DNA of 64,000 nt from Azonexus fungiphilus (lineage in GTDB: Bacteria > Pseudomonadota > Gammaproteobacteria > Burkholderiales > Rhodocyclaceae). Where the stretch lies: NCBI RefSeq assembly GCF_003634965.1, contig NZ_RBXP01000018.1:147333-211332 (forward strand). Direction: 5' to 3'. Below the pieces are notes generated by a model. The model worked only from the letters and a program-made list of their open reading frames with translations. It was not told where the DNA came from and ran no database searches. Of this stretch, positions 48,887 to 64,000 are shown piece by piece (the first letter of the stretch is position 1; the number at the start of each line of letters is the position of its first letter). The position numbers were made by a program, and so were the translations under genes.

Positions 48887-48913
48887 TTTACGACGCCTCC
48901 GGAAATAACTTTA
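48887..48913 (-). promoter_or_regulatory. Sigma-28 (FliA) promoter of flagellin gene
   Basis: On the minus strand, -35 TAAAGTTA (48906-48913) and -10 GTCGTAAA (48887-48894) are 11 bp apart. The -35 matches seven of eight consensus bases. The predicted leader is about 90 nt. The site lies in the 153-bp gap between the glycosyltransferase gene and fliC, so fliC is transcribed independently of the glycan operon. Confidence 0.87.
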
Positions 48914-48943: not shown

Positions 48944-51900
48944 TCAGACCGGCAGATGCGCCAGCAACCAATCGTCGAGATGGTCTTCGAGAATGTAATG
49001 GCGGAGGACCCATTCACGCATCGCCAACCCTTCCCGTTCACGGGCATCCGCATCGTGGATGCGCTCGCGCAGCGCATCGATCCATTCCGTCGGACGGTTC
49101 CTGACGCGGCAGGCCGGGCTGTTGCGATAGGGGTCGATATCGGTGCATACGACCGGGATGCCGAGAATTCCGTACTCGAGCAGACGGAGATTGCTCTTGG
49201 CGCGATTGAAGGGAGTTTCGGCGAGAGGGGCGACGGCAATGTCGAAGTTCAGCGATGCCAGGTAAGCCGGGTAATCGGCGAAACCGACCAGCGGATGGTA
49301 CTCGGCCAGCAGCGGGCGGATCGACTCCGGGCACATGCCCATGAAAACCCAGTCGGCGTCGGCACTGGTTGCCTTGATGATTTCCTCGAGCAGCAGCAGG
49401 TCGTCCTGGTGCGTGGTGCCACCCGCCCAGCCGATTCGCGGCTTCCTGCCGGTACGTTTGGCGCTGCTGAGCGGCAGCCAGAGCGCCTGCTCGAGGCGGT
49501 TGGGGACGACCTTGATGTCCTTGATGTGATGGCTGTGGTAATCGGCCAGATAGTCGGTAGACACGATCAGGCGGTCGCACAGGGCCAGAGAATGCCGGAT
49601 GCGCTCTGCCGGGTTGGGCGGGTTGGTGGCGCGTAGTGGATTGCTTTCCGCCAAGCCGGTGACCAGGTCGTCCAGTGTCTGGATGACGAAGGGACGGGCG
49701 GCGATCCGGCGAATGTCCTGCAGTTCCTGCAGGCAGGAATTGCCGAGATAGTTCTGGACGACCAGAACGTCGGGCGCCAGCCTGAGCAGTTCGGCCGGAT
49801 GGGCTGGCCGGTAGGCGCCCTGGTCCCAGACGCAGCGCTGGATCTGTCCCTTGGCATGCAATGCGTCGAGCGGTGCCGTTACCCGGTAGTAGCCCTGGCC
49901 GTTGGTGACCGGGCGGGCGAGTATGCGCAGCTTAAGGCTGGGGACAATGTGCCAGGGCGGCAGGAGTTCGGTTTCCAGCCCGGGAATGCGCCCGGTCAGC
50001 GAGAGATTGGGGTTCCAGAAGGGATCGGACGCTGCCTCCGGGTACCAGCGGTCGATGAAGGCGTCGCGCGCGGCGTACTGCGCCAGCTGCTTGCGCGCCA
50101 GGACTTCCGGGCGCTCCGGCAGCGGGCCGGTGGCTGGCGGCTGGTAGACGATGTTGGACAGTGGCTGGTAGATCAGTCGTTCGCCCTGTGCGCGTAGCCT
50201 GAGCCCGAGGTCGGCGGCTGACAGATCGGCCACGATGGCGCCGTCGTCGATGCCGCCAGCCTGCAGGTAGCTGCTCTTGCGAACCAGGAAGCCGCCTTTC
50301 GGGAGGGTGCCGAGATCCCGTGTCGTGCGCAGCCAGTTGAGTGGGACGCTGGTGCCGTACTTGACCCGGCCCCGGTAAGGGGCGTCGAGCAGGCCGTTCA
50401 GGCCGAGTACCGGGCCAGCACTGTTGATCAGCGAGGTGCCGGGCTGGATTTGACAGGGCACGACCGCACCGATGCCGGATTGCAGGGCATTGCGGATCAG
50501 CTCTTCGAGCCAGCTGTCCTGGACGATCTGCACTTCTTCGTCGAGGAACGCCAGGAATTCACCGTTCGCCGCCTGGGCCGCCAGATTGCAGAGCGTGGCA
50601 TGACTTTGCGCTGCCGGCGGCGAGAGCAACTCGATACGGACCCCGGGGGTTGCCTGTCGGCGTTCGATTTCGGCGAGCAGGTCCGGGTCGGTGTTGCCGT
50701 CCGGCTTGCAGACGATGATGTCGAATGCCGGATAGCGGGTGTAGCGCTGGATGGTTTCGAGGCAGCGGGCGATGCTCGAATGCAGAACGTCGCTGGCCGA
50801 GATCACGATGATGGTGACGCTCGGTGCTGCGCTCAGCGGGTAGCGGATGTGCCAGCCCTGCGTGCCGCTGTCGAGGACTTCGGCGGCGATGCCTTGTCCG
50901 CGCAGATGGGCCAGGACTGCGCTGCGGCATGCCTGGCCGTGCTCGGGGGCATTGTGCGGATGGCTGATCAGGATGTCGGCAATGTGGCCGAGCGAGTCCC
51001 AGGCGTCGATGGCGGCGATCGCCAGGAGCTTGTCGAACCACGGGCAAGGCGAATCGTGGCGCACCTCGGCGGCAAGCCAGAGGGCCCGGCGCACGCAGAG
51101 CGGTCCGGCCAGGTCGCTTTCGAGCAGCGCGGCCCGGTTGACCCCGGGTTTGAGGCGCGGGTTGGCGCGGCTGCCGGACTCGTCGTAGCAGTCGTCGTCG
51201 ACGAAGAAGGCGGCGTGTTCGGTGTTGCTCGCTGCGGTTCTGGCGATCCGCCAGAGATAGAGCGGGTCGGGACGGCTGCCGACGGGCAGTTCGATGACCC
51301 AGTCGTACTCGCTGCTTTCGACCAGCTGCCGGGTCAAGGCGGCGAGGTCGGCTGTTTCGGCAACGGTATGCCAGCCGATGCAGGGAATGTCGGCGAGGCC
51401 TTCGGGAGCCGGCAGCGGCGTCAGGATGTCGAGGTGCCAGCCGGCATGGATTTGCTCGCCCAGCGCGTCGAGCGTGCTGGCCAGGCCGGCACCGTCATCG
51501 GCAGCGACCCGGACGATGATCTGGAAGGCGGCCTGGTCGCCCTCGCGATTGAGGACGGCCGGTGCGCTTTGGGCGACCAGCATGGCGCGGCGGTCGAGCC
51601 AGCGCAGGTAGTCGTCGTCGCGGCAACTGCTCCGGGTGGTTCCCGGCTGGCGCTGGACTGCGGCGAGCATCCCGGGCGACTGCAGGGTGATCGCGCACAG
51701 CCCGGATTCGGCGTAGGCCTCGCGGAACTGTTCGGCAGCGGCCGGACGATCCGCCAGCGGCAGGCTCCACAGTGCCTGCATTTCATTGCGCAGCGGCTTG
51801 CCGTGCTGCCGGAACTGCTCGGCCTTGCGATACACGGTCTCCACCATCGCCTGGGTCAGCGCCCAGGACTGGTCGCGCGCCGCCTCGTGGGCAGCCGGAA

Positions 51901-52729
51901 TCCAGCGCAGGCTCTGGCGTGCCCGGGCAAGGGCGTCGCTTTCGCCATAGACGGCCAGGCCGGGAATGCGGTGGTGCGGGTCGCCGTCGGGCAGCGGCAG
52001 GTAGTCGCTGCGAACCAGCAGCACCGGGCAGCCGCAGGCCAGCGCCTCGCTGATGATGCCGGAGGGCTCGTAGCAGTACAGCACCTTGCTGCGCCGGAGG
52101 ATGTTGGCGATTTCCTGCGGCGTGCGCTTGACCTCCTGGCCGAGGCTGACCAGTTGCTCGTGCTCGGGCAGCAGCGGGCGCTGGCCGAGGAAGTACTTGT
52201 TGGCGTAGTAGCACTCGAGGGTGCGCGCCGCGTCGTCCGGGTTGTCGTCGTTGTGGAAGACGCTTTCGTCGACCGGGTGGATGAACAGCGGCTGGCCGCT
52301 CATCTGCGGCGGCAGGCACCAGGCTTCGTAATAGAAGATCAGGTCTTCCGGCTCGAAGTCGATGTCCTTGCCCAGGTGGCCGGGGACGTTGAGCAGCCAG
52401 CGGGCGATCAGCGGCGTGTTGGCCGGATTGTCGGAGACCACCTCGGGATAAAGGGTGACCGGTGTCTGGCCGGCCAGGAAGTGTTCTTCCAGTCGCTTCA
52501 GGGTGAGCACCGGGGTGCGCAGTCGCGGCGAAGTGACCTGGGTGCCGACCAGGTAGGCCTCCTCGCCCATTTCGTTGAGGATGTGGCAGAGGTAGTGCAG
52601 CACGCGGATGCCGCCGGAACTGTCGCGGTAATCGGGGGCGTGGATGTAGAACGGCACGTTGCTGCGCTCGTTGATCGAGCGCGGGCGCTTGGCGGCGGGG
52701 CAGAACGTGGCGTGATGGTGATCGGTCAT
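48944..52729 (-). CDS. Large multidomain glycosyltransferase (GT4-like, GT2-like, GT4-like)
   Basis: A 1261-aa cytoplasmic protein with several transferase-like parts. Residues about 25-330 resemble a GT4-type enzyme (SSGGIRVLHYLCHILNEMGE; PSGIISEALACGCPVLLVRS). Residues about 400-600 look like half of a GT2 domain (FFVDDDCYDESGSRANPRLK). Residues about 635-860 are a second GT2-like domain, with FLDEEVQIVQDSW where DxD is expected and AADLGLRLRAQG where an acidic catalytic pair is usual. Residues about 930-1261 form another GT4-like part (RIGWAGGTTHQDD; NLRLLEYGILGIPVVCTDID). It is the last glycan gene before fliC and is a candidate for assembling or attaching the glycan. The substrate is unknown. 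Confidence 0.88.
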   Translation of the reverse strand: MTDHHHATFCPAAKRPRSINERSNVPFYIHAPDYRDSSGGIRVLHYLCHILNEMGEEAYLVGTQVTSPRLRTPVLTLKRLEEHFLAGQTPVTLYPEVVSDNPANTPLIARWLLNVPGHLGKDIDFEPEDLIFYYEAWCLPPQMSGQPLFIHPVDESVFHNDDNPDDAARTLECYYANKYFLGQRPLLPEHEQLVSLGQEVKRTPQEIANILRRSKVLYCYEPSGIISEALACGCPVLLVRSDYLPLPDGDPHHRIPGLAVYGESDALARARQSLRWIPAAHEAARDQSWALTQAMVETVYRKAEQFRQHGKPLRNEMQALWSLPLADRPAAAEQFREAYAESGLCAITLQSPGMLAAVQRQPGTTRSSCRDDDYLRWLDRRAMLVAQSAPAVLNREGDQAAFQIIVRVAADDGAGLASTLDALGEQIHAGWHLDILTPLPAPEGLADIPCIGWHTVAETADLAALTRQLVESSEYDWVIELPVGSRPDPLYLWRIARTAASNTEHAAFFVDDDCYDESGSRANPRLKPGVNRAALLESDLAGPLCVRRALWLAAEVRHDSPCPWFDKLLAIAAIDAWDSLGHIADILISHPHNAPEHGQACRSAVLAHLRGQGIAAEVLDSGTQGWHIRYPLSAAPSVTIIVISASDVLHSSIARCLETIQRYTRYPAFDIIVCKPDGNTDPDLLAEIERRQATPGVRIELLSPPAAQSHATLCNLAAQAANGEFLAFLDEEVQIVQDSWLEELIRNALQSGIGAVVPCQIQPGTSLINSAGPVLGLNGLLDAPYRGRVKYGTSVPLNWLRTTRDLGTLPKGGFLVRKSSYLQAGGIDDGAIVADLSAADLGLRLRAQGERLIYQPLSNIVYQPPATGPLPERPEVLARKQLAQYAARDAFIDRWYPEAASDPFWNPNLSLTGRIPGLETELLPPWHIVPSLKLRILARPVTNGQGYYRVTAPLDALHAKGQIQRCVWDQGAYRPAHPAELLRLAPDVLVVQNYLGNSCLQELQDIRRIAARPFVIQTLDDLVTGLAESNPLRATNPPNPAERIRHSLALCDRLIVSTDYLADYHSHHIKDIKVVPNRLEQALWLPLSSAKRTGRKPRIGWAGGTTHQDDLLLLEEIIKATSADADWVFMGMCPESIRPLLAEYHPLVGFADYPAYLASLNFDIAVAPLAETPFNRAKSNLRLLEYGILGIPVVCTDIDPYRNSPACRVRNRPTEWIDALRERIHDADAREREGLAMREWVLRHYILEDHLDDWLLAHLPV

Positions 52730-52783
52730 GAGGGTTTTCGCGGCGGGGCGTTGGTCGGTCGGCGATTCGGTTTTCGGGGTTTT

Positions 52784-53719
52784 CTACCCGTCGACCGTGA
52801 ACCTGCGGATCTGCGCCTGGTGGCGGCTGGCGTGCAGGAAGAAGAAGTTGGTTTCGACGGTTTCCTCTGTCATCCGGGTAAACGGGAGCAGCTTGCTGCC
52901 GTCGCTGGTGAAGGCGCGGTAGCCGTGGCCGGCGAGCAGCTCGAAGATCTCGTTCGGGTCGTAGCCGTACTTGGCCGACCACTTGCGCAGGATTTCGGCG
53001 AGGATGATCGGCTGGTGCCGGGCCAGGGTTTCCGCGGCGCCCTGGAAAACGCGCAGCTCGGCGCCTTCGACGTCGCACTTGATGAAGTCGGGCGGCGCCA
53101 GGCGATGCTCGGCGACGTAGTCGTCGAGGCGGTGCAGCTGGCACTCGACTTCGCTGACGTCCGGGCGGCCCGTCAGGTTAACGCCGGAAGCGTTGCCCGA
53201 GCAGGCTTCGTAGAAATAGAAGGTGTGCGCGCCGCGGCGCTCGGCGAGCGCGACGTGGTGGGTGCGGATGTTGGTGAAGCGGTTGAGCGCGATGTTGCCG
53301 GTCAGGTGCTGATAGGTTGACGGGATCGGCTCGAAGCACTCGAAGCTGGCATGGCGGTAGGTGGCGGCCAGATTCAGCGAATGCCAGCCGATGTTGGCGC
53401 CGATGTCGTAGAAGTGGCGGCAGCCTTCGAACAGCTTGAACATCATGCGCGACTCGCGCGGCTCGAAGTCGTTGAAGTTGAAGGTCTCGACCGGCGGCGA
53501 GCGGTGGTCGCCCGGCTGGTAGCGGATGCGCACGCCGGTGCTGCGGGTCGTGAACACGACGCCGGACGCGTCGATGCTGATCTCGCGGATGTCGGTCTCC
53601 GGCAACAGGGTGGCGTACTCGAACAGCTGCCGGTGGTAATCCTGGTAGGCCTGTTCGATGTACCGGGGTTTGTCGACCTGCCCGGCGGCGAAGTCGCTCC
53701 TGAGTTGCGCCAGCTTCAT
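52784..53719 (-). CDS. FkbM-family SAM-dependent methyltransferase
   Basis: A 311-aa methyltransferase, likely an O-methylase acting on a sugar. From ATG 53719 (overlapping the epimerase stop by 4 bp), the SAM motif is FYDIGANIGWHSLNLA (residues 103-118). Then come FECFEPIPSTYQHLTGNIAL, KCDVEGAELRVFQGA and IILAEILRKWS, all typical of the FkbM fold. The N-terminal 80 residues are specific to this subgroup. FkbM-family enzymes are frequent in surface-polysaccharide and flagellin-modification loci. Longer in-frame extensions run back into the neighbouring gene and are rejected. Confidence 0.9.
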   Translation of the reverse strand: MKLAQLRSDFAAGQVDKPRYIEQAYQDYHRQLFEYATLLPETDIREISIDASGVVFTTRSTGVRIRYQPGDHRSPPVETFNFNDFEPRESRMMFKLFEGCRHFYDIGANIGWHSLNLAATYRHASFECFEPIPSTYQHLTGNIALNRFTNIRTHHVALAERRGAHTFYFYEACSGNASGVNLTGRPDVSEVECQLHRLDDYVAEHRLAPPDFIKCDVEGAELRVFQGAAETLARHQPIILAEILRKWSAKYGYDPNEIFELLAGHGYRAFTSDGSKLLPFTRMTEETVETNFFFLHASRHQAQIRRFTVDG

Positions 53720-54771
53720 TGGATGCATTCCTGATAGTGTCGGATCGTTCTTTGGAATCCCGCGAGCGGGTCTATTGTCATTTCCCAGCCCAGCGCACGC
53801 AACTGGTCGACCGAGGCGTCGGTGCTTTTGAAATTCACCCGGGTCATCGCCTGGGCCGGGCTGGTCTGGCGCTCGACCTGGCCGAGCGGCCGGGGCAGCG
53901 CGCGGTCGTTGAGCAGCGTGGCCAGCTCGAGGATGCTGATCGGTGCCGGCGAGGCGACGTTGAGGACGGCGCCGGGCGCGGCCTTGGCCAGCGCGACGAG
54001 CAGGCCGCGGACGAAGTCGGCGACGTAGAGGAAATTGCGGACGGCGCTGCCGTCGCTGGTCAGGCGGATCGGTTCGCCGGCCAGCAGCGCCCGGACGAAA
54101 TCGGCGTAGGAGCGGCCGTCGTCGAGCTCGAAACCCGGCCCGTAGGTGATCGACGGGCGCAGGATCAGGACCGGGATGCCGTATTGCTGCTGGTAGGCGA
54201 GGCAGAGCATTTCGCCGAAGCGCTTCGATTCGAGATAGCAGTTGCCGAGTTCGGTGCAGCTCAGCGGGCCATACTCGGATTCGCTCGACGGCCGTTGTTC
54301 GTCCGGGATGAAGCCGGTGACGCCGGTGGTGCTGAGATAGACGAAGCGGCACGCGGGATTGCGCCGCCGCAGCTGTTCGAGCAGCGCCTGTGTGAGGATC
54401 GCGTTCGGCGTCAGCACGTCGACCGGCGAGCCGGCGAAGTGCTTCGGGCTGGCCCGGCTGGCGCAGTGCAGGACGAGGTCGAAATCGGCGGCGGCGAGCG
54501 CGGTGGCGGCATCCTCGTCGACGGCGAAGCGGCACGGCAGGCTGGCGTGCTCGGGAAACTTTTCCTGCAGGCGGCGCGGGTTGCGCAGATGGGCGGTGAG
54601 CTCGCAGCGCAGGTGGCCGCCGGCGATCAGGAAGCAGAGGAAGTGCACCAGATACCAGCCGATCTGGCCGCTGGCGCCGGTGACGTAGATCCGCCGGCCC
54701 TGCAGCGGCTGGTAGAGCGACTCGACCGCGGCGAGGGCGGCGAAGTCTTCGCGCATCGGTGTCGTGATCAT
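53716..54771 (-). CDS. NAD-dependent sugar epimerase/dehydratase
   Basis: A 351-aa extended short-chain dehydrogenase. It has the nucleotide-binding motif TGASGQIG (31-38), a conserved Ser/Thr-rich strand VYLSTTGVTGF, and the catalytic pair Tyr179/Lys183 in CYLESKRFGE. It also has RPSITYGPGFELDDGRS, and later FLYVADFVRGL and VLNVASPAPISI. This suggests an active NDP-sugar epimerase, dehydratase or reductase of the GalE/WcaG type. It lies between the FkbM methyltransferase and a degenerate epimerase, with overlaps of 4 bp to both. Substrate unknown. Confidence 0.9.
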   Translation of the reverse strand: MITTPMREDFAALAAVESLYQPLQGRRIYVTGASGQIGWYLVHFLCFLIAGGHLRCELTAHLRNPRRLQEKFPEHASLPCRFAVDEDAATALAAADFDLVLHCASRASPKHFAGSPVDVLTPNAILTQALLEQLRRRNPACRFVYLSTTGVTGFIPDEQRPSSESEYGPLSCTELGNCYLESKRFGEMLCLAYQQQYGIPVLILRPSITYGPGFELDDGRSYADFVRALLAGEPIRLTSDGSAVRNFLYVADFVRGLLVALAKAAPGAVLNVASPAPISILELATLLNDRALPRPLGQVERQTSPAQAMTRVNFKSTDASVDQLRALGWEMTIDPLAGFQRTIRHYQECIQ

Positions 54772-55685
54772 CGGCGGTTGATTGCCTGCGCGTGCTGCAG
54801 CAGGGCGTCCTGGCGGAGGGCGTCGACGTCGATCGTCGCGATGTTTTCGGTGTAGTGGCGGATCAGCTTGCGGATCGAGATGTCGATCGGTGAAAAATCG
54901 AGATTTTCGAGGGTCGACCGTAAACGTCCGTTGTCGCCGGTGTAGGGGCGGCCCAGGCCGGGCGTCGCGATCGTGTAGCCGCGGTCGATGCCGAGGTTCA
55001 GGTCGACCAGTTCGACGATCCGCGACAGCCTGACCGATTCGTCCGGGGTGACGTTGAACTCACCCTGGCGGACGTTGCCGTCGATCAGGCGGTCGACGAT
55101 CGCGCAGAAATCCTCGACGTCGAGGTAGTCGTAGAGCGCGTCGCGGATCAGGGTGATCTCGAGGCCGGCCAGCCGCTTGGCGATGGTGTTCGAGATGAAC
55201 TTGTAGCGGTAGTCCTCGTGCCGGCCGAAGATGCCGAACAGGCGCAGCGTGACGACGTCCTCGAGGTGCCGGGCATGGCTGGCGATGACGAATTTCGAGA
55301 AACCCTGGCTGTCGCTCGGGATGTGCTGGCCGAGGTAGTCCTCGCGCATGTTCTCGACCCAGTTGTCGCGGTTGTAGCTCGAGCCGCTGCACAGCGTGTA
55401 CAGGAGGGCGCCGGCCGGGCGGTGGCGGACGAGGTTGAAGAACATGCGCAGGTTCTGCTCGCAGACGTCGCTGTCGTAGCCCTTGCCGACCGTGTTCGAG
55501 GTCGCCGAGTGGATGATCAGGTCGGGCTGCGTCGCCGCCAGGCAGGCGGCGACCTGGCCGCTGTCGGTCAGGTCGAGTTCGGCCTGGCCCGGACTGAACA
55601 GCGTGAAATCCGGGCGTCGCGCCAGCGACTCGCGCAGGTTGCGGCCGACGAAGCCTTCGCCGCCGGTCAGGAGGATACGTTTCAT
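54768..55685 (-). CDS. SDR-family sugar epimerase-like protein with altered active site
   Basis: A 305-aa extended-SDR protein. The NAD-binding motif TGGEGFVG (7-14) is intact. In the catalytic YxxxK position the sequence is SQGFSK (residues 126-131), so Gln127 replaces Tyr while Lys131 remains. The paralogue at 59889-60728 has YGISK at the same place. The two share TLRLFGIFGRHEDYRYKFIS/NLRVFGIFGEHEDHSRRFIS. Either the fold works as a binding or partner protein, or chemistry uses another residue. It overlaps the neighbouring epimerase gene by 4 bp and lies 1 bp after the B12-type radical SAM gene. Confidence 0.87.
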   Translation of the reverse strand: MKRILLTGGEGFVGRNLRESLARRPDFTLFSPGQAELDLTDSGQVAACLAATQPDLIIHSATSNTVGKGYDSDVCEQNLRMFFNLVRHRPAGALLYTLCSGSSYNRDNWVENMREDYLGQHIPSDSQGFSKFVIASHARHLEDVVTLRLFGIFGRHEDYRYKFISNTIAKRLAGLEITLIRDALYDYLDVEDFCAIVDRLIDGNVRQGEFNVTPDESVRLSRIVELVDLNLGIDRGYTIATPGLGRPYTGDNGRLRSTLENLDFSPIDISIRKLIRHYTENIATIDVDALRQDALLQHAQAINRR

Positions 55686-55686
55686 G

Positions 55687-57396
55687 TCAGTGCAGCCACT
55701 TTCCCTCGATGGTCGGGATGATCTCGCCGGTCGTCGCCGGCACTTTCAGGTCCATGATTGCCAGGAATCTGTCCCAGCCGCCAGAGATCCGGTATTCGTG
55801 ACATTTTTCCAGGTGCGCGGCGGCGCCTTCGGCGTCGCCTTCCTTCATGCGCACGTAGCCGAGGCAGAGGTTGGCCATCAGGTGGTCGGGTCGCAGGTTG
55901 AGCACGTTGCGGAAGCCGGCGGCGGCGGTGGCCAGGCGGCCCAGTCGCAGGTCGCTGTTGTAGAGGAAGTTCAGTTCCAGATTGAAGACGTACTGCATGT
56001 CCTGGATGTAGTCGGCGCTGAAGTCCGGGGTGTTGATGACGGCGGTCCGGTAGTCGGCGCCGAGCACATTGCCGGAAATGTAACCCTTTTCCGAGGCGAT
56101 CTTGTGGATTTCGCTGCCGACCACCGGACTGGCGCAGACCACGTGATACCAGTTGGCCGGGATCGTGCGCAGGTTCAGCCGCGCCTCCTCGATGTCCTGG
56201 CGGGTTTCGCCGGGCAGGCCGATGAGCACGTTGGCGTTGGTGTAGATGTCGAGCTTGCGGCAATCCTCGGTGACCTGGCGGGAAATGCTCATCTTCAGCG
56301 GCTTCTTCATCTGGTGCTTGAGGACCTTCTCGCTGCCGCTCTCGAGCGGCAGCACCAGCTGGTTGACGCCGGCCCGCTTGAACGCCGACAGCGTCTCGTG
56401 ATCGAGCGAATAGAGCGTCAGGCCGTTCTGGAAGATGGCGTTGAGCTTCTCCTGCTCGATGAAGCCGAGGATCGTCAGCACCCGTGCCTTGTCGGCCATG
56501 AAGTGGTCGTCCTGGAAGATCAGCGTTTGCGCGCCATAGTCCTTGACCAGCCGGCGGATGTCGGCGAACACCCGGTCGGTCGAGTGATAGCGCATCTTCC
56601 GCCCGTGCACCTGGTGCGAGGCGCAGAAGGTGCAGTGGAAGGGACAGCCGCGTGAAGTCATGATGTGGTAGCCGGTGCTGTCCGAATGCGCCGCATAGGA
56701 GGTCATCACCGGATTCAGGCTGTGCCGGCCGTGGTCGCACAGCGCGTAGTCGTAGAACGGGATTTCGTCGAGGTCGACGATGAAGTCGTGTTTCGGGATG
56801 AAGAAATCTTCCAGCTTGCGCGCGGTGATCCATGATTCGGATCGTTCAACGTATTCCTGCGGCGATTCGGCTTCGATCAATCCCAGCATCGGCTTTTCGC
56901 CTTCGCCGAAACAGAGGGCGTCGAAATAAGCGAAACCGCCGGTCTGGTGGATGTGCTGATAGGAGTTGGTCGGGATATTGCCGCCGCCGACCAGAAAGGA
57001 GTCCGGCCAGAGTTCCTTGACGGCTGCGCCGAGTTCGATGAAGTTCTGGTAGGACGGGCTGAACAGGCTGGAGATGCCGATGATGTCCGGGCTGAAGTCG
57101 GCGACGAAATGCTCGGCCAGGTATTTTCTGGCGAAGCTGGCGAAATCGGGGTAGTCGAACTCGTCGAGTGCGCTGACCTCGACGTTGAAGTCCACCAGCC
57201 GGATATCGAGGCTGTAGTGTTTTTTCAGGTAGGCGGACATCGACAGCAGGCCGAGCGGCAGGTCGGTGGCCAGGCTGTTGACGATGCGTCCGTTCTTGAT
57301 CACGGTGCGCGCGTTCTTCGGCGGCGAAACGTAAGACTCGTACGAGATGTGGACGGGTACGAGGAAGAGCATTTTCTTTTTGGGTTCTTTGACCAT
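55687..57396 (-). CDS. B12-binding radical SAM enzyme with TPR-like C-terminus
   Basis: A 569-aa enzyme from ATG 57396. Residues about 8-180 form a cobalamin-binding Rossmann-type domain (IIGISSLFSPSYQNFIEL; LVGGGNIPTNS; CFGEGEKPML). A radical SAM domain follows, with cluster Cys251, Cys255 and Cys258 (SRGCPFHCTFCASHQ), FQDDHFMADK and an Elp3-like LVLPLESGSEKVLKH with VLIGLPGETRQDIEEA. The C-terminal 70 residues carry a TPR-like repeat (NLRPDHLMANLCLGYVRMKE). Members of this class often add methyl groups at unactivated carbon or phosphorus. A longer start at 57441 is possible but gives a poor N-terminus. Confidence 0.9.
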   Translation of the reverse strand: MVKEPKKKMLFLVPVHISYESYVSPPKNARTVIKNGRIVNSLATDLPLGLLSMSAYLKKHYSLDIRLVDFNVEVSALDEFDYPDFASFARKYLAEHFVADFSPDIIGISSLFSPSYQNFIELGAAVKELWPDSFLVGGGNIPTNSYQHIHQTGGFAYFDALCFGEGEKPMLGLIEAESPQEYVERSESWITARKLEDFFIPKHDFIVDLDEIPFYDYALCDHGRHSLNPVMTSYAAHSDSTGYHIMTSRGCPFHCTFCASHQVHGRKMRYHSTDRVFADIRRLVKDYGAQTLIFQDDHFMADKARVLTILGFIEQEKLNAIFQNGLTLYSLDHETLSAFKRAGVNQLVLPLESGSEKVLKHQMKKPLKMSISRQVTEDCRKLDIYTNANVLIGLPGETRQDIEEARLNLRTIPANWYHVVCASPVVGSEIHKIASEKGYISGNVLGADYRTAVINTPDFSADYIQDMQYVFNLELNFLYNSDLRLGRLATAAAGFRNVLNLRPDHLMANLCLGYVRMKEGDAEGAAAHLEKCHEYRISGGWDRFLAIMDLKVPATTGEIIPTIEGKWLH

Positions 57397-57466
57397 TTGG
57401 GGCTCCTGTTGGTGTCTGGGCTGTTGTTGTCTGTGGCGCAATGGTCGTTTGCCGTGTCTCCGGCAA

Positions 57467-58585
57467 TCACTCTGTGGGGGGGAATTGCTCCGCGTGGTAG
57501 TGGATCGGTAGCGCCCGGATCCGGCTGATGACCTCCTTGGGGTAGATGCCGGGGACCATCACCAGGATCACGTCGATGCCGCAAGCGGGATCGAGGAGGA
57601 TTTCCGGCGGCCTGATCCTGAGGTGTGATATCGGCGAAAACTTGTCGTGCTTGAATTTGGCCGAGTCGATGATGCTGTCGATCAGCCGGTGATCGGCCAG
57701 CGAGATCAGCGCCAGCGTCCGGTGCCCGGCCCCCCAGACGGCGATCCGTTTGCCTTCGCCGGCCAGGCTGCGCAGCCTGGCGTTGAAGCGCTCGACCAGG
57801 CCGTCGAGCGCCTGCTTGCTGCTGGCGATGGCGCCGCGCGGGCGCTTCTGGGCGACGATCTGGATGTCGTACTGGTTGTTGATGATCTGGCACTCGAGCA
57901 GCGTGAAGCCGGTCAGGCGCAGCGCGGTTTCCAGGCTTTCGGCGGTGAAGTAGAGCAGGTGGTCGGCGACGAATTCGTGCGCTGACTGGCTGTCGAGCAG
58001 GAAATCGAGGTTGGGCACGGTGAGCAGCAGGCGGCCGTCGTCGGCCAGCAGCGCATGGCATTTCTGCAGGAAGGCACGGGCGTCGGGCTGGTGCTCGAGG
58101 TAGTTGAACGAGACCAGCAGGTCGTGGCGGCCGTGGTGTTCGGCACCGAGGTCGAGCAGGTAGGTGTCGCTGACGCCCTCGGGCAGCGGCGTGGCGGCAG
58201 CGAATTCGATGCCGCTGGCGGCGAACCCGGCCTCGCGCAGGAGCGGCAGGTTGTCGCCGCCGGCGCAGCCGATCTCGAAGGCGCTGGCGCGCTCGCCGAA
58301 GCTGGCACGGAGTTGCCGGAAGAGGGTCAGCCGCTGCTCGCGGACGACCGGCGACAGCGAGGCGGCGGTGATCACCTGGCGGTAGTAGTCGACCGCCTCG
58401 TTGCGCAGTTGCGTCAGCCCGCAGTCCGGGCATTCGGCGACTTCGAGCACGATGCCGCGATCGTCGGCGAATTCCTCGGGCGTCGGGTAATACTGCGCCG
58501 CCTTCGGAAACGGGCCGATGGCGACGACGTCGTCGGCGCTCAGCGGGGCGCGGCAGAGGCGGCAGGTGAAGGGCGTGGCGGTCAT
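57467..58585 (-). CDS. SAM-dependent C-methyltransferase for nucleotide sugars (zinc type)
   Basis: A 372-aa methyltransferase with the three-part layout of sugar C-methyltransferases (TylC3/NovU class). The N-terminal zinc site is Cys8, Cys11, Cys52 and Cys55 (FTCRLCR; ECPDCGL). The central SAM domain has FEIGCAGGDNLPLL (103-116) and FNYLEHQPDAR. The C-terminal Rossmann-like domain has KRIAVWGAGHRTLALISL and MVPGIYPKEVISRI. It probably methylates a 4-keto nucleotide sugar at carbon, forming a branched sugar. It overlaps the following radical SAM gene by 4 bp. A 70-bp spacer lies on its downstream side. Confidence 0.9.
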   Translation of the reverse strand: MTATPFTCRLCRAPLSADDVVAIGPFPKAAQYYPTPEEFADDRGIVLEVAECPDCGLTQLRNEAVDYYRQVITAASLSPVVREQRLTLFRQLRASFGERASAFEIGCAGGDNLPLLREAGFAASGIEFAAATPLPEGVSDTYLLDLGAEHHGRHDLLVSFNYLEHQPDARAFLQKCHALLADDGRLLLTVPNLDFLLDSQSAHEFVADHLLYFTAESLETALRLTGFTLLECQIINNQYDIQIVAQKRPRGAIASSKQALDGLVERFNARLRSLAGEGKRIAVWGAGHRTLALISLADHRLIDSIIDSAKFKHDKFSPISHLRIRPPEILLDPACGIDVILVMVPGIYPKEVISRIRALPIHYHAEQFPPTE

Positions 58586-59892
58586 GCGTCGGGGGCCAGG
58601 TCGAAACTGGGTTTGCTGGCGGCCACCGCTTCCCAGCGGCTGCGGTTGAGGCCGAGGTTGTAGGCGGGCAGGCCGTGTTTGACGCAGGTCTGGCAGATGC
58701 CGGCCTGCGCCTTGCCCTGGCCGATCTGCGCCTTGCTGGCGGTGAGGAAGTTGGCGGCGACGATGTTGGGGCCGCGATTGAAGGTGGTACAGCAGATCGG
58801 CACGCTGAGGTCCCAGTTGATGATCGTCTGGTTGGCCAGGAAAGGGCAGTCGGCCGGGGAAATCGACGGATTTTCACGGTCGACCGTGCGCGAAGCCGAA
58901 ATTCCCTCCTCGACGCTGACCAGGAGCTTCGGCTCAAGCGCCAGCGTGCTCGGACTGGGGCGGCCTTCGAGCTTGTCGATGACGCGTTCGAGCGGCATCA
59001 CCAGGGCGAAGGTGGTGGACAGGAAGAAGCCGAGTTCGGCACACAGCTCACGCATCTTCTGCAGGTTGCGGCCGTTGTTGTTGTTGTACAGGTGGTAGTT
59101 CACATCGACGACGGTGTCGAGCCGGTACTTGTCGATGTAGTACCTGAGTCTGAGCAGGTTGGAGCGGACCAGATGAATGTTGCCGCCGCCGTGCGTGTCG
59201 TTGTAGGCCTCCGGGTAATAGCCGGAGAGCGAGACCTTGAGGTATTCCGGGTTGTGCTGCATGACCTTGTGCAGCAGCGCCTCGTTCTTGATCGACAGGT
59301 TGCTCGACAGGGCGGCGGCGATGCCGTGACGGTGCAGGTAGTCGACCATCTCCGGCAGCGCCGGGTTGAGGAAGGGCTCGCCCCAGCTGTAGAGGCTGAT
59401 GTGGGTGACCAGGTCGTTCTCGGCGACGATTTTGTCGATGACCTGACGATAGGTCTCGAAACTCATCTGCCCGCGCGCGTACTTCTCGCCGCCGGCGCCG
59501 TGGGCGCAGGAGAGGCACTTGAGGTTGCAGGTGCCCATCACGTCGACGGTGTAGAACAGGTCGCAATAGCCCGAGTAGTTGATGAAGCTGTCGGCCGGGA
59601 AACCGTAGCCGAGGAGCTGGCGGTTGATTTCCGCTTCCTTGGTCGAGGCGGCGACGACGATCTTCAGCCCCGGGTGCTGCGCTCGCAGCGCCGGCAGTTC
59701 GGCTGGCGGGTGGCAGGGCAGGCCGGCGATGCGCTGGCCGGCGAAGGCCGGGTCGGAATCGATGAAGCCGAGTACCGCGATGCCGTGGGTGCGGCACAGC
59801 CGGACCAGGCCGAGGCCGGTCATGCGGGCGCCCCAGATCAGTACCGGGACGTCGGCGAGCTGGGCCAGCAGGTCGGCCTGGCGGGTGTTCAT
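58582..59892 (-). CDS. Rossmann-like domain fused to radical SAM/SPASM enzyme
   Basis: A 436-aa fusion. Residues 1-105 form a small nucleotide- or sugar-binding-like Rossmann domain (VLIWGARMTGLGLVRLCRTH; FIDSDPAFAG), similar in style to the C-terminal domain of the adjacent C-methyltransferase. Radical SAM cluster Cys122, Cys126 and Cys129 follow (MGTCNLKCLSCAHGAGGEK), with SLYSWGEPFLNP. A SPASM-type C-terminal region has CPFLANQTIINWDLSVPICC and CQTCVKHGLP. SPASM domains hold additional iron-sulfur clusters. Substrate is unknown; the fused Rossmann domain suggests a nucleotide-linked or small glycan substrate. Confidence 0.86.
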   Translation of the reverse strand: MNTRQADLLAQLADVPVLIWGARMTGLGLVRLCRTHGIAVLGFIDSDPAFAGQRIAGLPCHPPAELPALRAQHPGLKIVVAASTKEAEINRQLLGYGFPADSFINYSGYCDLFYTVDVMGTCNLKCLSCAHGAGGEKYARGQMSFETYRQVIDKIVAENDLVTHISLYSWGEPFLNPALPEMVDYLHRHGIAAALSSNLSIKNEALLHKVMQHNPEYLKVSLSGYYPEAYNDTHGGGNIHLVRSNLLRLRYYIDKYRLDTVVDVNYHLYNNNNGRNLQKMRELCAELGFFLSTTFALVMPLERVIDKLEGRPSPSTLALEPKLLVSVEEGISASRTVDRENPSISPADCPFLANQTIINWDLSVPICCTTFNRGPNIVAANFLTASKAQIGQGKAQAGICQTCVKHGLPAYNLGLNRSRWEAVAASKPSFDLAPDA

Positions 59893-60728
59893 GTCACCCT
59901 GCCGGCGGCGAATTCGGCTTCGTACCAGGCGAACAGCCGGCGTACCGAGGCTTCCATCGGCGTGAAGTCAAAGCCGCCGATGGCTTCGAGCAGTCGCCGG
60001 TTGTCGCCGGTGTACACCGAGTTGATTTCGCCATTGACCACGGTCAACGCGTTTTCGCGGCCACTTTCGCGGTCGATGATGGTGGCCAGGTCGACCAGGC
60101 TGCGGGGGATCGAGGTGCACACGTTGTACGACTTGAAGGCCGTCGGCAGCGTCAGGAAGCGTTCGGCGATGCGGGCGAAGTCCTGGATGTCGAGGTAATC
60201 GAACACCGAATTGCGGTTGACCGTGATCGTCCGGTTGCGGATCGAGGCGCAGATGTTGTTCGAGATGAAGCGACGGCTATGGTCCTCGTGCTCGCCGAAG
60301 ATGCCGAACACCCGCAGGTTCACGAAATCGTGCGGCGAGCGCTCGATGTCGCGGGCGATGCAGAACTTGGAAATGCCGTAGGTGTCGCCGGGAATGTTGC
60401 TGCCGAAATAGTCCTCGGCCATCATCGGCTTGTAGTACGGGATCGCGTATTCGGCGCCGGAACCGATGTTGAGCAGGCGGCCGAACAGGCCGGCGCAGCG
60501 TTCCAGGTTGAAATGGATGTGCAGGTTGGTTTCGACCGACTGGATGTTGATCGCACTGTTGATCACGACATCGGGGCGGTGTTCGCGCAGCCAGGATTCG
60601 ACCGCGCCCTGGTCGAGCAGGTTGAGTTCGGCGCGGCGCGGCGCGAGCACGGTGTAGGGGCGGGTCGCCAGGTAGGCGGTGAGGCCGCGGCCGATGAAGC
60701 CGTTGCCGCCAAGGACGAGGATCTTCAT
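59889..60728 (-). CDS. NAD-dependent sugar epimerase
   Basis: A 279-aa extended-SDR enzyme from ATG 60728, which overlaps the preceding radical SAM stop by one base. It has GGNGFIG (7-13), the catalytic Tyr117 and Lys121 (DTYGISKFCIAR), RVFGIFGEHEDHSRRF and FDYLDIQDFARIAERF. The end overlaps the following radical SAM fusion gene by 4 bp. It is a paralogue of the epimerase-like protein at 54768-55685, but with an intact active site. Likely works on an NDP-sugar in this pathway; the exact reaction is not evident. Confidence 0.9.
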   Translation of the reverse strand: MKILVLGGNGFIGRGLTAYLATRPYTVLAPRRAELNLLDQGAVESWLREHRPDVVINSAINIQSVETNLHIHFNLERCAGLFGRLLNIGSGAEYAIPYYKPMMAEDYFGSNIPGDTYGISKFCIARDIERSPHDFVNLRVFGIFGEHEDHSRRFISNNICASIRNRTITVNRNSVFDYLDIQDFARIAERFLTLPTAFKSYNVCTSIPRSLVDLATIIDRESGRENALTVVNGEINSVYTGDNRRLLEAIGGFDFTPMEASVRRLFAWYEAEFAAGRVT

Positions 60729-61807
60729 CAGCGCGACACCTCGGCGAGCAGCGGGCGGATCTTGTCGAGCAGGACGGCCTTGTGCGGGTCGAGGTCTTCC
60801 TCGACGCAGACCACCGGCGCCGTGCAGTTCTTGCAGAAATTGATGTCGCAACGCTTGCCTTCGAGCATGGCGACCTGCAGGGCGCGCAGCTGCTGGCCGT
60901 TCCAGATGTCCTTGACCGACATCTGCTCGACGTTGCCGATGACGACCTTGCGTGGCCAGTCGAGCGTGCACGGGCTGGTCGTGCCGTCGCAGTTGAAATG
61001 CAGGTACATGAAGATGAACGGGCAGACATCCTTGTCGGCCTTGACCTTCTGCGCGTACATGCCGGTTTCGCTGACCTGGTTCTGCTTGTCGAGCTGGACC
61101 TCGGCCCACTGCGGGACGACCTTCTCGATGAAGATCTCGTCGCAGATGTTGCCGAAGGTGTCGAAGAAGTAATTGCGCTCGGCCTCGTCGAGGACGAACT
61201 TGTGCAGGATGTCGCGTGACAGGGCGCTGGTCTGGTCGGCGATCTTGACGTAGATCTTGCAGTCGCCGCGGATCGAGTACAGGTGCCTGACGCCTTCGAC
61301 AATCGCCGCGAAGCTCTGCTTGACCCCGGCCACCTGGCGGTAGCGCTCGTCCGACAGGCCTTCGAGCGAGATGTTGATGCGCTGCAGGCCGCTGTCGATC
61401 AGCGCCTGGTTGAGCACCGGTTCGAGCTGCGAGGCGTTGGTGAACAATTCGACGATCTCGGCGGTGCCGCTGTCGCGGGCGTAGCGGATCATCGCTGGCA
61501 GGTCGGGGTGCAGGGTCGGTTCGCCGTGGTTGCCGATCTTGATCTTCTTGATTTTCCGGTCGAAGGCCTTGAGGTCGTCGACGATCTTCCTGAACAGTTC
61601 GAGCGACATCATGCCGCGCTTCAGGCCGACCGCCTTCATTGCCTGGCTGTCGGCCTGGAAGCAGAAGCTGCACTTGTAGTTGCAGACGCTGCAGACGTCG
61701 ATATGCACCGAGAACGGCGTGCTCAGCGGGACCTGGTCTTCCAGCGGCACCTTGGCCGCGGAATGGATGCGCGGCTGGATGACGGCGGCGATGTTTTTCT
61801 CTGTCAC
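60728..61807 (-). CDS. Radical SAM/SPASM enzyme
   Basis: A 359-aa radical SAM protein. Cluster Cys42, Cys46 and Cys49 (VCNYKCSFCFQ), then KIGNHGEPTLHPDLPAMIRY and FTNASQLEPVLN. The C-terminal SPASM-like region contains CPFIFMYLHFNCDGTTSPCT, VIGNVEQMSVKDIWNGQQLR and CDINFCKNCTAPVVC. This arrangement resembles anaerobic enzymes acting on sugars, peptides or side chains. Gene order between the aldolase and an epimerase suggests a step in monosaccharide synthesis. It differs in sequence from the fused radical SAM protein at 58582-59892. Confidence 0.88.
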   Translation of the reverse strand: MTEKNIAAVIQPRIHSAAKVPLEDQVPLSTPFSVHIDVCSVCNYKCSFCFQADSQAMKAVGLKRGMMSLELFRKIVDDLKAFDRKIKKIKIGNHGEPTLHPDLPAMIRYARDSGTAEIVELFTNASQLEPVLNQALIDSGLQRINISLEGLSDERYRQVAGVKQSFAAIVEGVRHLYSIRGDCKIYVKIADQTSALSRDILHKFVLDEAERNYFFDTFGNICDEIFIEKVVPQWAEVQLDKQNQVSETGMYAQKVKADKDVCPFIFMYLHFNCDGTTSPCTLDWPRKVVIGNVEQMSVKDIWNGQQLRALQVAMLEGKRCDINFCKNCTAPVVCVEEDLDPHKAVLLDKIRPLLAEVSR

Positions 61808-61831
61808 GGCGATTGCCTTTTGCGGGGTGAT

Positions 61832-62641
61832 TCAGTGATGGGGGACGTTTTCGGACAGCACCTGCCAGCGCTTTTCCAGCATTTCGATGCGGGCGTTGTC
61901 CTCGCGGTGAATGAAGCCGTGGTAGTCGCGTTTGTTCTGCAGCCAGAGCAGCTCGAAATGCACGGCGACGCGCAGGCCTTCGTGCATCTCGGCGATATCG
62001 AGCGCGTTGGCGCCGAAGATCACCTTGCGCGTCTCGAAGCGGGTCAGGTGGCTGTTGCGGATGTCGGCCAGGAAAGGCAGCGCGTCGGCCGAGACGCCAC
62101 CGCCGACGACCAGGTCGAGGCCCTTGTCGCGGCACTGGCGGGCGGCCTCGTGACAGAACTCGGACATCCCGGGCGAGTTGACCGCATCGCGGCCCCAGCC
62201 CATCGAGCCGACGAAGTCGACGCGGCCGAAGACAATCCCGGCCAGACCGCCGGCAACCGCCATGCTGGCCATTTCCGGCAGCGAGCTGAAGGTCGTCCGC
62301 GTTTCCAGGTTGAACAGGAAATCGGTGTCCTGCTGCTCGTCCTGCGAATAGACGTGGTCCTTGGCGTGGATGAACTTGCTCAGCGCGTACGGGGTTTCGA
62401 CCATCGGCGCGATGATGTATTCGACGCCGAACTGCTTGCTCTCGATCAGGTCGCGCATCGCTTCGCAGCCGCCGACCTTGAGCCCGATCTTGAGATCGGC
62501 CTTGCGGGCGATTTCCATCAGGCGCAGCAGTTCGTCCACACGCGTTCCTTCGGCCTCGAATTCGGCTTTGACGGCAACGCAGCCGTATTCGTTCTTGAGC
62601 GTCTTGAGAAGACTCAGCATCTTGCGTTCGCAATTATTCAT
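61832..62641 (-). CDS. HpcH/HpaI-type aldolase/citrate lyase family protein
   Basis: A 269-aa TIM-barrel protein of the class II pyruvate aldolase/citrate-lyase group. The N-terminal region [20 protein letters not shown] is followed by [38 protein letters not shown] with the metal-site Glu, and [14 protein letters not shown] with the typical RxDF metal-binding motif. I chose ATG 62641 over TTG 62659. It overlaps the phosphatase gene by 8 bp. Such enzymes condense pyruvate or PEP-derived units with aldehydes; here it could make a ketose-acid precursor. The substrate is inference. Confidence 0.82.
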
Positions 62642-63296
62642 GGTGTGGCCTTTGCTCAATCGTGGATAACAGGTTGAAGATTTCCGCGTGATGCCGGAAC
62701 GTCAGTGTACAGGTGGATTTCCGGACGCCGTCGTCGTAGCCGCCGGCGAAGAAGGCGAAATCCGCGCCGCCGGCTTCGGCCAGCGCCTGGTCGACCCGGC
62801 TGTCGCCGACCACCAGGCTTTCGCCGGGGCGACTGCCGAGCGCGGCCAGGCAGGCCTGCAGGTTGTCCGGATGCGGCTTGGCGGTGGGCAGGTCGTGGCC
62901 GGCGCAGACCGCCGAAAAGTATTCGCCGAGGCCGGTTTCAGCGAGGACCTTCTCCGCCAGCGGGCGCGGCTTGTTGGTGCACAGGCCCAGGCGGGTGCCC
63001 GCTGCGCGCAGCCGGGCCAGGGTCTCGCGGACCGCCGGGTAGAGCGTCGCCGGGTCGGTCGGCAGGGCCTGGTAGCGGGCGCGGAAACGTTCGAGGAAGG
63101 GCTGTGCCTCGGACTCGGGGATGTCGAGAGCAGCAGCCACCATCGCCTTGCCGCCGACGCTCAGCCAGGGCAGGTAGTCGGCGCGCGCCAGCGGCGGCAG
63201 TGCCTGCTCGGCGCGCAGGCCGTTGAGCAGTGCGGCGACGGTCGCGGCGCTGTCGACCAGGGTGCCGTCGAGGTCGTAGACAATCGTTGAGTACAT
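62634..63296 (-). CDS. HAD-family phosphatase (phosphoglycolate phosphatase-like)
   Basis: A 220-aa HAD hydrolase. Motif I is DLDGTLVDS near residue 9, motif II is LCTNK, the motif III Lys is in AKPHPDN, and motif IV is [19 protein letters not shown]. It has a helical cap between motifs I and II, as in Gph. It is encoded between the TPP enzyme and the aldolase, and overlaps the aldolase start by 8 bp. It is likely to dephosphorylate a sugar-phosphate intermediate, as KdsC-like HAD enzymes do in keto-sugar acid pathways. Generic housekeeping phosphoglycolate phosphatase is less likely in this context. Confidence 0.87.
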
Positions 63297-63306
63297 GGTG
63301 GGTGTT

Positions 63307-64000
63307 TCAGCCGTCGAGGCGGTTCGCTGCCAGTTCTGCTCGTTCCAGGAAGGGCGACATGTCGTCCAGTGCTGGTGTACTCATCGACCCATCCGGCAGT
63401 TTTCTTGAGGCCAGTTTCGGAGAAAAGGCCTGGGCCGGGTCGACGACGACCTCGATCAGTGCCGGCCCGGGGCCCGCCAGCAGGGCTGAGGTCTCTGCCG
63501 CCTGCCAGCTGTCGGCGCTGTCCACCCGGCGGGCAGGAATGCCGAGGGCGCCGGCGAGGGCGACGAAGTCGGGCAGGCTGACGCCATCGTCGGGGCCGAT
63601 GCCGAACATGTTGTCCTGGAAGTAGGCGGCCTGGGTCTGGCGGATCGAGTGATAGCCGGCGTTGTTGAGGACGATGACCTTGACCGGCAGGCGGTAGCCG
63701 ACCAGGGTTTGCAGTTCCTGCAGGTTCATCATCAGGCTGCCGTCGCCGGCCAGGCAGATCACCGGCTGGCGGTCGCGGGCGATGCAGGCGCCGATGGCCG
63801 CCGGCAGGTCATAGCCCATCGAGGCGTCGCCGGAGTTGGTGAACAGCCTTTGTCCGGCCTGCAGCCGGGCCGCCTGGAAACCCATCACGCAGGCCGAGCC
63901 GTTGCCGGTGACGACCACGGCGTTGCGGTCCAGTCCGGCGAACAGCAGTTCGATGAAGTGGTAGGGGTTGAGCGGTCGGTCCGACGTTCGTTGCGTGGCG
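63307..64000 (-). CDS. Thiamine pyrophosphate-dependent enzyme, C-terminal part (5' end outside window)
   Basis: The C-terminal half of an acetolactate synthase-like TPP enzyme; the frame is open to the window edge. It shows GNGSACVMGFQAA, YDLPAAIGACIARD, the TPP-binding motif AGDGSLMMNLQELQTL with NNAGYHSIRQTQ (GDGS followed by NN about 27 residues on), and LIEVVVDPAQAFSPK. Genes of this class in glycan loci often decarboxylate 2-oxo acids or carry out ketol transfers. It is the first gene of the visible glycan operon, 10 bp before the phosphatase. N-terminal domains and substrate cannot be judged. Confidence 0.9.
   Translation of the reverse strand, partial: ATQRTSDRPLNPYHFIELLFAGLDRNAVVVTGNGSACVMGFQAARLQAGQRLFTNSGDASMGYDLPAAIGACIARDRQPVICLAGDGSLMMNLQELQTLVGYRLPVKVIVLNNAGYHSIRQTQAAYFQDNMFGIGPDDGVSLPDFVALAGALGIPARRVDSADSWQAAETSALLAGPGPALIEVVVDPAQAFSPKLASRKLPDGSMSTPALDDMSPFLERAELAANRLDG

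Follow-up and report, generated by a model that had tools for sequence, protein, structure and literature searches.

What does a run of sugar genes that includes three radical S-adenosylmethionine (SAM) enzymes make, and what receives the product when the run ends directly upstream of a flagellin gene? The question is raised by an operon of Azonexus fungiphilus on the minus strand of the 64,000-nucleotide stretch analyzed here (the window, C7:147333-211332 of a 3.55-Mb genome). The operon is cut by the window edge, and the contig extends 8 kb past the window end. We consider it probable that this operon is a flagellin glycosylation island that makes a long-branched, radical-SAM-edited cytidine diphosphate (CDP)-sugar. 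Loci and genomes are cited below by their L and G numbers.

A recurring gene order

The unit is ordered GGDEF-rfbF-rfbG-rfbH-TPP-HAD-ALD-SPASM1-SDR1-rSAM2-CMT-B12rSAM-SDR2-SDR3-fkbM-GT and is followed by fliC; TPP is the gene for a thiamine diphosphate (ThDP) enzyme, ALD that for an enzyme of the HpcH/HpaI fold, CMT that for a zinc-type C-methyltransferase, and GT that for a large glycosyltransferase. The upstream genes, which encode the GGDEF protein, RfbF, RfbG, RfbH, and the ThDP enzyme, are joined by overlaps of 4 to 7 bp. Within the window, the intergenic gaps of the run range from -26 to +70 bp, and 153 bp separate GT from fliC. Open reading frames (ORFs) were called mechanically, so that start codons are uncertain and ORFs without a counterpart in the reference set may be spurious. 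All genes named in the initial annotation of the window were present on the minus strand, although they numbered 12 rather than eleven. A tRNA scan of the window found none.

The same genes occur in the same order in three other genomes (L009, L010, and L011), with protein identities of 55 to 93% (48 to 49% for GT). Because the order recurs in these genomes, the run is not a chance assembly. The loci compared here and below are related to one another, and counts of them represent nonindependent events.

The sugar core

The sequence beyond position 64000, which the initial annotation had proposed to examine, holds the rest of the ThDP gene, rfbH, rfbG, rfbF, and the GGDEF gene. RfbF, RfbG, and RfbH pass their NCBIfam equivalog cut-offs (466, 463, and 717 bits against 300, 278, and 423, respectively) and are predicted to make CDP-4-keto-3,6-dideoxyglucose. 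RfbH has an aminotransferase fold in which His replaces Lys and a Cys cluster is present, features that we take to be the marks of a pyridoxal phosphate/[2Fe-2S] 3-dehydratase (E1). The earlier statement that the operon lacks an aminotransferase was thus formally wrong, since RfbH has the fold, but RfbH matches the equivalog of the 3-dehydratase type, and an aminotransferase role was rejected on that match. The genome encodes one RfbH; two further matches are distant.

The complete ThDP gene encodes 619 amino acids (aa) and starts at C7:212498 (L003:7499); its C-terminal part occupies window positions 63307 to 64000 (minus strand). The protein contains the N, M, and C TPP domains of Pfam, a GDG motif at residue 474 with its N, and an HHEQ motif. 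Its best match in the PDB was JanthE (8rph, 419 bits), nearly double the score of the best acetolactate synthase (223 bits), and assignment as an acetolactate synthase was rejected on this ground. Entry 5ahk, which we take to be the YerE of P. protegens, scored 211 bits, no better than acetolactate synthase. The structure 8rph is named as that of JanthE, which accepts pyruvate too (PMC12188165).

YerE transfers the acetaldehyde unit of pyruvate onto CDP-4-keto-3,6-dideoxyglucose, and its donors are limited to pyruvate and 2-oxobutyrate; ErwE adds hydroxylated (4-hydroxy-2-oxo) acids to the same acceptor to give erwiniose, and MMAR_2332 serves caryophyllose (PMC12247030, in part). Because RfbF, RfbG, and RfbH are present and the ThDP enzyme is nearest to JanthE, the sugar appears to be of the ErwE/caryophyllose type, branched at C4. 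The proposal of an unusual branched, perhaps C-methylated sugar was supported, but its framework had to be corrected to a known one, a CDP-3,6-dideoxyhexose extended by a YerE-like ThDP enzyme. This framework had been missed because the diagnostic genes lie beyond position 64000.

Flagellin as the likely acceptor

The multidomain glycosyltransferase of 1,261 aa (48944 to 52729, minus strand) passes the Pfam cut-off for a GT2-like domain (27.6 bits against 23.3), with a GT4-like match just under cut-off. Operons that carry it end at fliC-flaG-fliD-fliS in all four genomes where they occur (the window, L009/L036, L010/L037, and L011/L038). Of 61 genomes examined from the bacterial family, 21 have a member of this glycosyltransferase family, A. 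fungiphilus included. In 19 of the 20 other genomes, a homologue lies within 16 kb of flagellin, with the reservations that the flagellin of G707 is a fragment of 82 aa at the end of a contig, that the glycosyltransferase itself lies at a contig end in G708, and that the matches in G712 and G703 cover the N-terminal part only. Thus, flagellin is the likely acceptor, as the initial annotation had suggested. The ThDP gene was rejected as a marker of flagellin islands, since only 5 of the family's 19 ThDP genes, a lower bound, were placed within about 25 kb of a listed flagellin, and the large glycosyltransferase is the better marker. In one relative, L077 contains, from position 2747 (plus strand), an open frame of 2,936 aa that includes a glycosyltransferase and precedes flagellin genes.

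The proposed acceptor, FliC (48134 to 48790, minus strand), has 218 aa and was identified from Flagellin_N and Flagellin_C domains and an alignment. A sigma28-like site (48887 to 48913, minus strand; TAAAGTT and a CGT-like box) precedes fliC with the same spacing in all four genomes; it scores 9 of 12, a score reached or exceeded in 87 of 2,000 random 160-base stretches. Because the site recurs in four genomes, fliC is probably transcribed from a promoter of its own. The flagellins of the three relatives have 227 to 229 aa (L036:4372-5061, L037:4404-5090, and L038:8327-9010). Compared with nine other small flagellins of the family (262 to 310 aa; only ORFs of 200 to 330 aa were compared, longer flagellins being excluded), the 218-aa protein lacks a segment before the C-terminal helix, which is likely the D1 beta-hairpin. 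Its structural model is all helical (mean predicted local distance difference test [pLDDT] score of 79). Bacillus cereus flagellin, with proteins of 249 and 273 aa that have only D0 and D1, has been called the smallest (PMC5895748, in part). The idea that the sugar requires a short flagellin was weakened by L012, where the sugar genes lie beside a 589-aa flagellin.

The site between the GGDEF gene and fliC is itself a swappable glycan island. At this site, one congener (G218) has PseB, PseC, PseF, and a Pse-associated methylase over cut-off, together with a putative NeuB-like frame. A second congener (G111) has RfbF, RfbG, and RfbH with SPASM1-like and B12rSAM-like genes. The GGDEF diguanylate cyclase gene (L003:10640-12403) borders the island on its upstream side and overlaps rfbF by 4 bp. 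It also flanks very different islands in relatives (L112, L114, L117, L118, and L121) as well as L009 to L011.

A larger set of loci shares part of the operon. RfbF, RfbG, RfbH, the ThDP enzyme, HAD, ALD, SPASM1, SDR1, rSAM2, and CMT are common to seven loci: the window, L009, L010, L011, L012, L019 (Jezberella), and L122 (G692). L008, a 4.7-kb contig with part of the set, was counted outside the seven. The ThDP enzymes of the seven form one clade (support, 100/99). B12rSAM, SDR2, and SDR3 accompany this module in five of the seven (the window, L009, L010, L011, and L122). In L122 these three are in changed order and 37 to 70% identical, and the set therefore looks held together by function, not merely by recent descent. 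The window, L009, L010, L011, and L012 place the module at flagellin; in L012 it lies approximately 9 kb from fliC-flaG-fliD-fliS, on the same strand and contig and with other glycosyltransferase genes. Distance from flagellin in most relatives, which the initial annotation had named as evidence against its proposal, was thus not what we found.

The operon might instead make a sugar for lipopolysaccharide (LPS), capsule, or a secreted protein and adjoin fliC by location only. Several observations favor this explanation or count against flagellin. No flagellin was found within the 59 kb read of the L122 contig, and this module (L122/L124, G692:C69) is near GT10-like (below cut-off), GT47, and NUDIX genes and a type I secretion system. 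The sole flagellin match on the Jezberella contig is approximately 310 kb from the module, which is accompanied by an ABC transporter, a GT10 gene, and a GNT-I-like gene. ALD clusters of another type, which carry a 3-dehydroquinate (DHQ)-synthase-like gene, occur in genomes without a flagellin match (G101, G304, and G305), and the ThDP genes that lie within about 25 kb of a listed flagellin may be as few as 5 of 19. Moreover, the published products of YerE-like enzymes are mainly LPS or lipooligosaccharide sugars (PMC12247030, in part). On the other side, no flippase, polymerase, or ligase family was found among the operon proteins by Pfam, the glycosyltransferase family accompanies flagellin in nearly every genome that has it, five of seven modules are at flagellin, and congeners keep other islands, one of them for pseudaminic acid, at the same site. 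In a hydropathy scan, the only peaks were borderline ones in rSAM2 and CMT. We therefore regard a destination other than flagellin as unlikely for the window. Because the L122 and L019 modules lie off flagellin and ALD clusters occur in flagellin-less genomes, the sugar chemistry is not specific to flagellin; the window-type operon probably is. The reordered module in L122/L124 has, besides the type I secretion system, a gene for a protein with RTX, PPC, and DUF4214 domains in its vicinity. Because of these neighbors, the glycan in G692 may be destined for a secreted protein.

A proposed supply of the long branch

Two genes next to the ThDP gene could supply a long branch. ALD (61832 to 62659, minus strand) passes its Pfam cut-off by a small margin (26.8 bits against 25), and the HAD-family phosphatase (62634 to 63296, minus strand) matches HAD_2 at 101.8 bits. 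The AlphaFold model of ALD is a TIM barrel (pLDDT of 90.5). Its best Foldseek matches are HpaI/HpcH aldolases (template modeling scores of 0.53 to 0.57), with pyruvate kinases close behind. E119 and D148, presumably the metal ligands as in HpcH, are invariant in 17 homologues. A sequence comparison of ALD with solved structures gave no match. Three plasmid records contain ALD (30 to 58% identity).

Nineteen loci with ALD were compared (the window unit L003, 14 named loci, three genomes of the taxonomic order, and G692). Of these, 17 contain a ThDP gene, although its identity is only 32 to 34% in L013, L018, and L041; the other two are L008 and L040, where the stretch ends inside rfbH. RfbF and RfbG are likewise present in 17 of the 19 (all except L008 and L039). 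The HAD gene occurs in nine loci and a DHQ-synthase-like gene, for which three of the proteins were checked with Pfam, in ten; no locus has both and none has neither. Both kinds of enzyme remove phosphate, and the simplest interpretation is therefore that the aldol product is phosphorylated.

A second swap was seen among ThDP loci of the family, in which a ThDP match was obtained for 19 of 121 genomes. A NeuB-family gene, over the Pfam cut-off in every case, lies alongside in 12 of these loci (L118, L119, L121, L128 to L132, L134 to L136, and L139), ALD in two, and neither in five. The ThDP tree, rooted on one acetolactate synthase, requires at least three switches of partner gene. In L128 (G740), the set of DHQ-synthase-like, short SDR, SDR3, and ThDP genes found in the Polaromonas and Bradyrhizobium loci recurs with NeuB in the place of ALD. 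We read ALD and NeuB as two interchangeable routes to a 3-deoxy-2-keto acid donor, which would lend genomic support to long hydroxylated 2-keto acids (longer than C4) as substrates of the ThDP enzyme. The pattern also suggests that some NeuB proteins may feed branched-sugar synthesis rather than nonulosonic acids.

A short-branch, yersiniose-like sugar would be made if the ThDP enzyme transferred acetyl from pyruvate and ALD and HAD served another step. YerE uses pyruvate (PMC12247030, in part) and JanthE also accepts it (PMC12188165). However, among the 17 family loci whose ThDP enzyme has at least 40% identity, 14 have ALD or NeuB beside it; two of the remaining three are cut at contig ends (G717 and G691, both with neither gene), and the third, G763, has neither. 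The ThDP enzyme is also far closer to JanthE than to 5ahk. A short branch is accordingly rather improbable.

The long-branch pathway has its own difficulties. The HpcH/HpaI match of ALD is weak, its fold matches share only 12 to 15% identity with it, and by eye no clear counterpart of the pyruvate-binding Arg of HpaI (R70) stands at the expected position; an Arg near D148, R146, is invariant. In G704, G747, and G763, which are uncut beside the ThDP gene, the stretch read contains no ALD and no NeuB; all three fall outside the remaining ThDP tree. Finally, the operon has no E3-type reductase (RfbI/AscD/DdhD) to serve RfbH, in a genome that was not searched for one.

The ten DHQ-synthase-type clusters (L013 to L018, L020, and L039 to L041) combine ALD, a short SDR, and the DHQ-synthase-like gene; nine have the ThDP gene, nine have RfbF and RfbG, and five have an SDR3-like gene. 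Their hosts are Thermomonas, Polaromonas, Ramlibacter, Bradyrhizobium, Acidocella, Rhizobium, and three further genomes. These clusters could be a caryophyllose-type pathway. Caryophyllose is 3,6-dideoxy-4-C-(1,3,4,5-tetrahydroxyhexyl)-xylo-hexose (PMC5706390, in part), and, worked backward from this structure, the donor acid would be 3,7-dideoxy-2-heptulosonate. In these sister clusters, as distinct from the window, the acid might arise by an aldol reaction like that of 3-deoxy-D-arabino-heptulosonate 7-phosphate synthesis, phosphate elimination by the DHQ-synthase-like enzyme without ring closure, and one reduction.

A putative radical SAM tailoring set

Between the donor genes and the glycosyltransferase gene lie eight minus-strand genes for candidate tailoring enzymes. 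SPASM1 (60728 to 61807), rSAM2 (58582 to 59892), and B12rSAM (55687 to 57396) have intact radical SAM motifs. The CxxxCxxC motif of SPASM1, a radical SAM/SPASM enzyme identified by Pfam, is at residue 42. This protein is 65 to 99% identical across the other module loci, and among 369 genomes of the class only one other than that of A. fungiphilus yielded a match. rSAM2 barely passes Radical_SAM (30.2 bits against 29.5), has no SPASM match in Pfam, and carries a CxxxCxxC motif at residue 122, kept in all seven aligned rows. By eye, its N terminus includes a Rossmann-like stretch; its C terminus contains Cys. B12rSAM has both a B12-binding (45.0 bits) and a Radical_SAM (64.5 bits) domain, as expected of the B12-type enzyme proposed initially, and is a putative C-methyltransferase; no NCBIfam equivalog matched it at cut-off.

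SDR1 (59892 to 60728), of the NAD-dependent epimerase/reductase fold by Pfam, has a YxxxK motif. SDR2 (54768 to 55685), a Pfam epimerase fold, has Gln at the position of the catalytic Tyr of SDR1 in all four aligned orthologues (the L122 copy was outside the alignment), and because of this replacement it may be a pseudo-enzyme or use another mechanism. SDR3 (53716 to 54771) has the epimerase/reductase fold (Pfam Epimerase, 134.7 bits). CMT (57467 to 58585) has paired CxxC motifs, with Methyltransf_23 and Methyltransf_14 over the Pfam cut-off and Methyltransf_13 below it. The FkbM-family methyltransferase (52784 to 53728) is over cut-off in both Pfam and NCBIfam. Our guess is that the radical SAM set may deoxygenate, epimerize, or C-methylate the branch.

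SPASM proteins often mature peptides, and the radical SAM enzymes might accordingly modify residues of flagellin or another peptide rather than a sugar. The weak NCBIfam matches include maturases, and FliB, a [4Fe-4S] flagellin lysine methyltransferase, has been published (PMC8598068, in part). Against this, SPASM1, rSAM2, SDR1, and CMT stay with RfbF, RfbG, RfbH, ThDP, HAD, and ALD off flagellin, in L019 and L122, which makes peptide modification very improbable. Related SPASM1/B12rSAM pairs (30 to 37% identity) accompany RfbF and RfbH in the flagellin islands of G111 and G730. A role of the radical SAM genes in defense was rejected, as the PADLOC matches were weak and partial. A nonulosonic acid route was dismissed because the whole genome (listed as 99.99% complete) has no NeuB match, in agreement with the earlier conclusions that the operon lacks a NeuB-type synthase and encodes neither the pseudaminic nor the legionaminic acid pathway.

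Discussion

From the observed genes, their order, conservation, co-occurrence, and site, we infer the following reactions, tailoring order, and acceptor. RfbF, RfbG, and RfbH would provide CDP-4-keto-3,6-dideoxyglucose, while ALD would join pyruvate to a phosphorylated aldehyde in an aldol condensation, and removal of the phosphate by the HAD enzyme would leave a free 3-deoxy-2-keto acid. The ThDP enzyme, following the logic of ErwE and caryophyllose, would decarboxylate this acid and add the acyl carbanion to the C4 ketone, so that C4 would become a tertiary carbon bearing a long, hydroxylated branch. The SDR proteins, the C-methyltransferase, and the radical SAM enzymes, that of the B12 type included, would then reduce, isomerize, and/or C-methylate the sugar. 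The large glycosyltransferase would place it on Ser or Thr of the short flagellin in the cytoplasm, and FkbM would methylate it. More tentatively, and with somewhat less than even confidence, we suggest a modular scheme: a flagellum with a long-branched, tertiary-carbon sugar, in which a swappable synthase (HpcH/HpaI type from pyruvate or NeuB type from phosphoenolpyruvate) and a swappable phosphate removal supply the donor to a YerE-like enzyme, after which radical SAM enzymes edit the branch. To our knowledge, no such sugar was known before on a protein filament.

The new feature is most likely the joining of two known kinds of system, a C4-branched CDP-sugar pathway and a flagellin island, with radical SAM tailoring added. 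The erwiniose and caryophyllose systems (ErwE and MMAR_2332) and JanthE share the CDP-4-keto-3,6-dideoxyhexose acceptor and the YerE-like ThDP enzyme (PMC12247030, in part) and, by analogy, may share a hydroxylated 2-keto acid donor. Those sugars belong to LPS or lipooligosaccharide, whereas the window locus is at fliC and adds SPASM1, rSAM2, B12rSAM, and the zinc-type CMT. Yersiniose A synthesis (DdhA to DdhD, YerE, and YerF) has the first three enzymes and C4 branching by a ThDP enzyme in common with the operon; it differs in the pyruvate and 2-oxobutyrate donors of YerE (PMC12247030, in part), where we propose supply by ALD and HAD, and in the ThDP enzyme, which is nearer to JanthE here. 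The flagellin islands of Enterobacteriaceae and Geobacillus also place variable sugar genes, FkbM, and glycosyltransferases by flagellin genes, and the type 23 island of Enterobacteriaceae has genes for CDP-4-keto-6-deoxyglucose (PMC4875605, in part), but the main texts mention no radical SAM, aldolase, or thiamine (PMC4875605 and PMC5109656). Pseudaminic acid islands resemble the operon in position, one lying at the same GGDEF-fliC site in G218, and differ in chemistry, as the A. fungiphilus genome lacks NeuB and the operon uses a CDP-hexose. We found no paper that joins flagellin glycosylation with RfbH/yersiniose-type sugars in a literature search that did not cover a published survey of over 200 YerE-like clusters, so we claim no priority for the ThDP part.

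LPS and lipooligosaccharides are the main known sources of branched tertiary sugars, and most YerE-like clusters have yet to be matched to a sugar structure (PMC12247030, in part). The alternation of ALD with NeuB and of HAD with the DHQ-synthase-like enzyme is a concrete, testable proposal for the origin of long branches. If the modular scheme is true, branched sugars with more than 10 carbons would have a general route of synthesis, and its DHQ-synthase version would yield the 3,7-dideoxy-heptulosonate needed for caryophyllose. The module might also provide enzymes for making tertiary alcohols. For the biology of the organism, the proposed island, if true, would extend flagellin glycosylation to radical SAM and B12 chemistry, and the wholly different sugar pathways found at the same site in congeners would let one flagellum gain a different coat.

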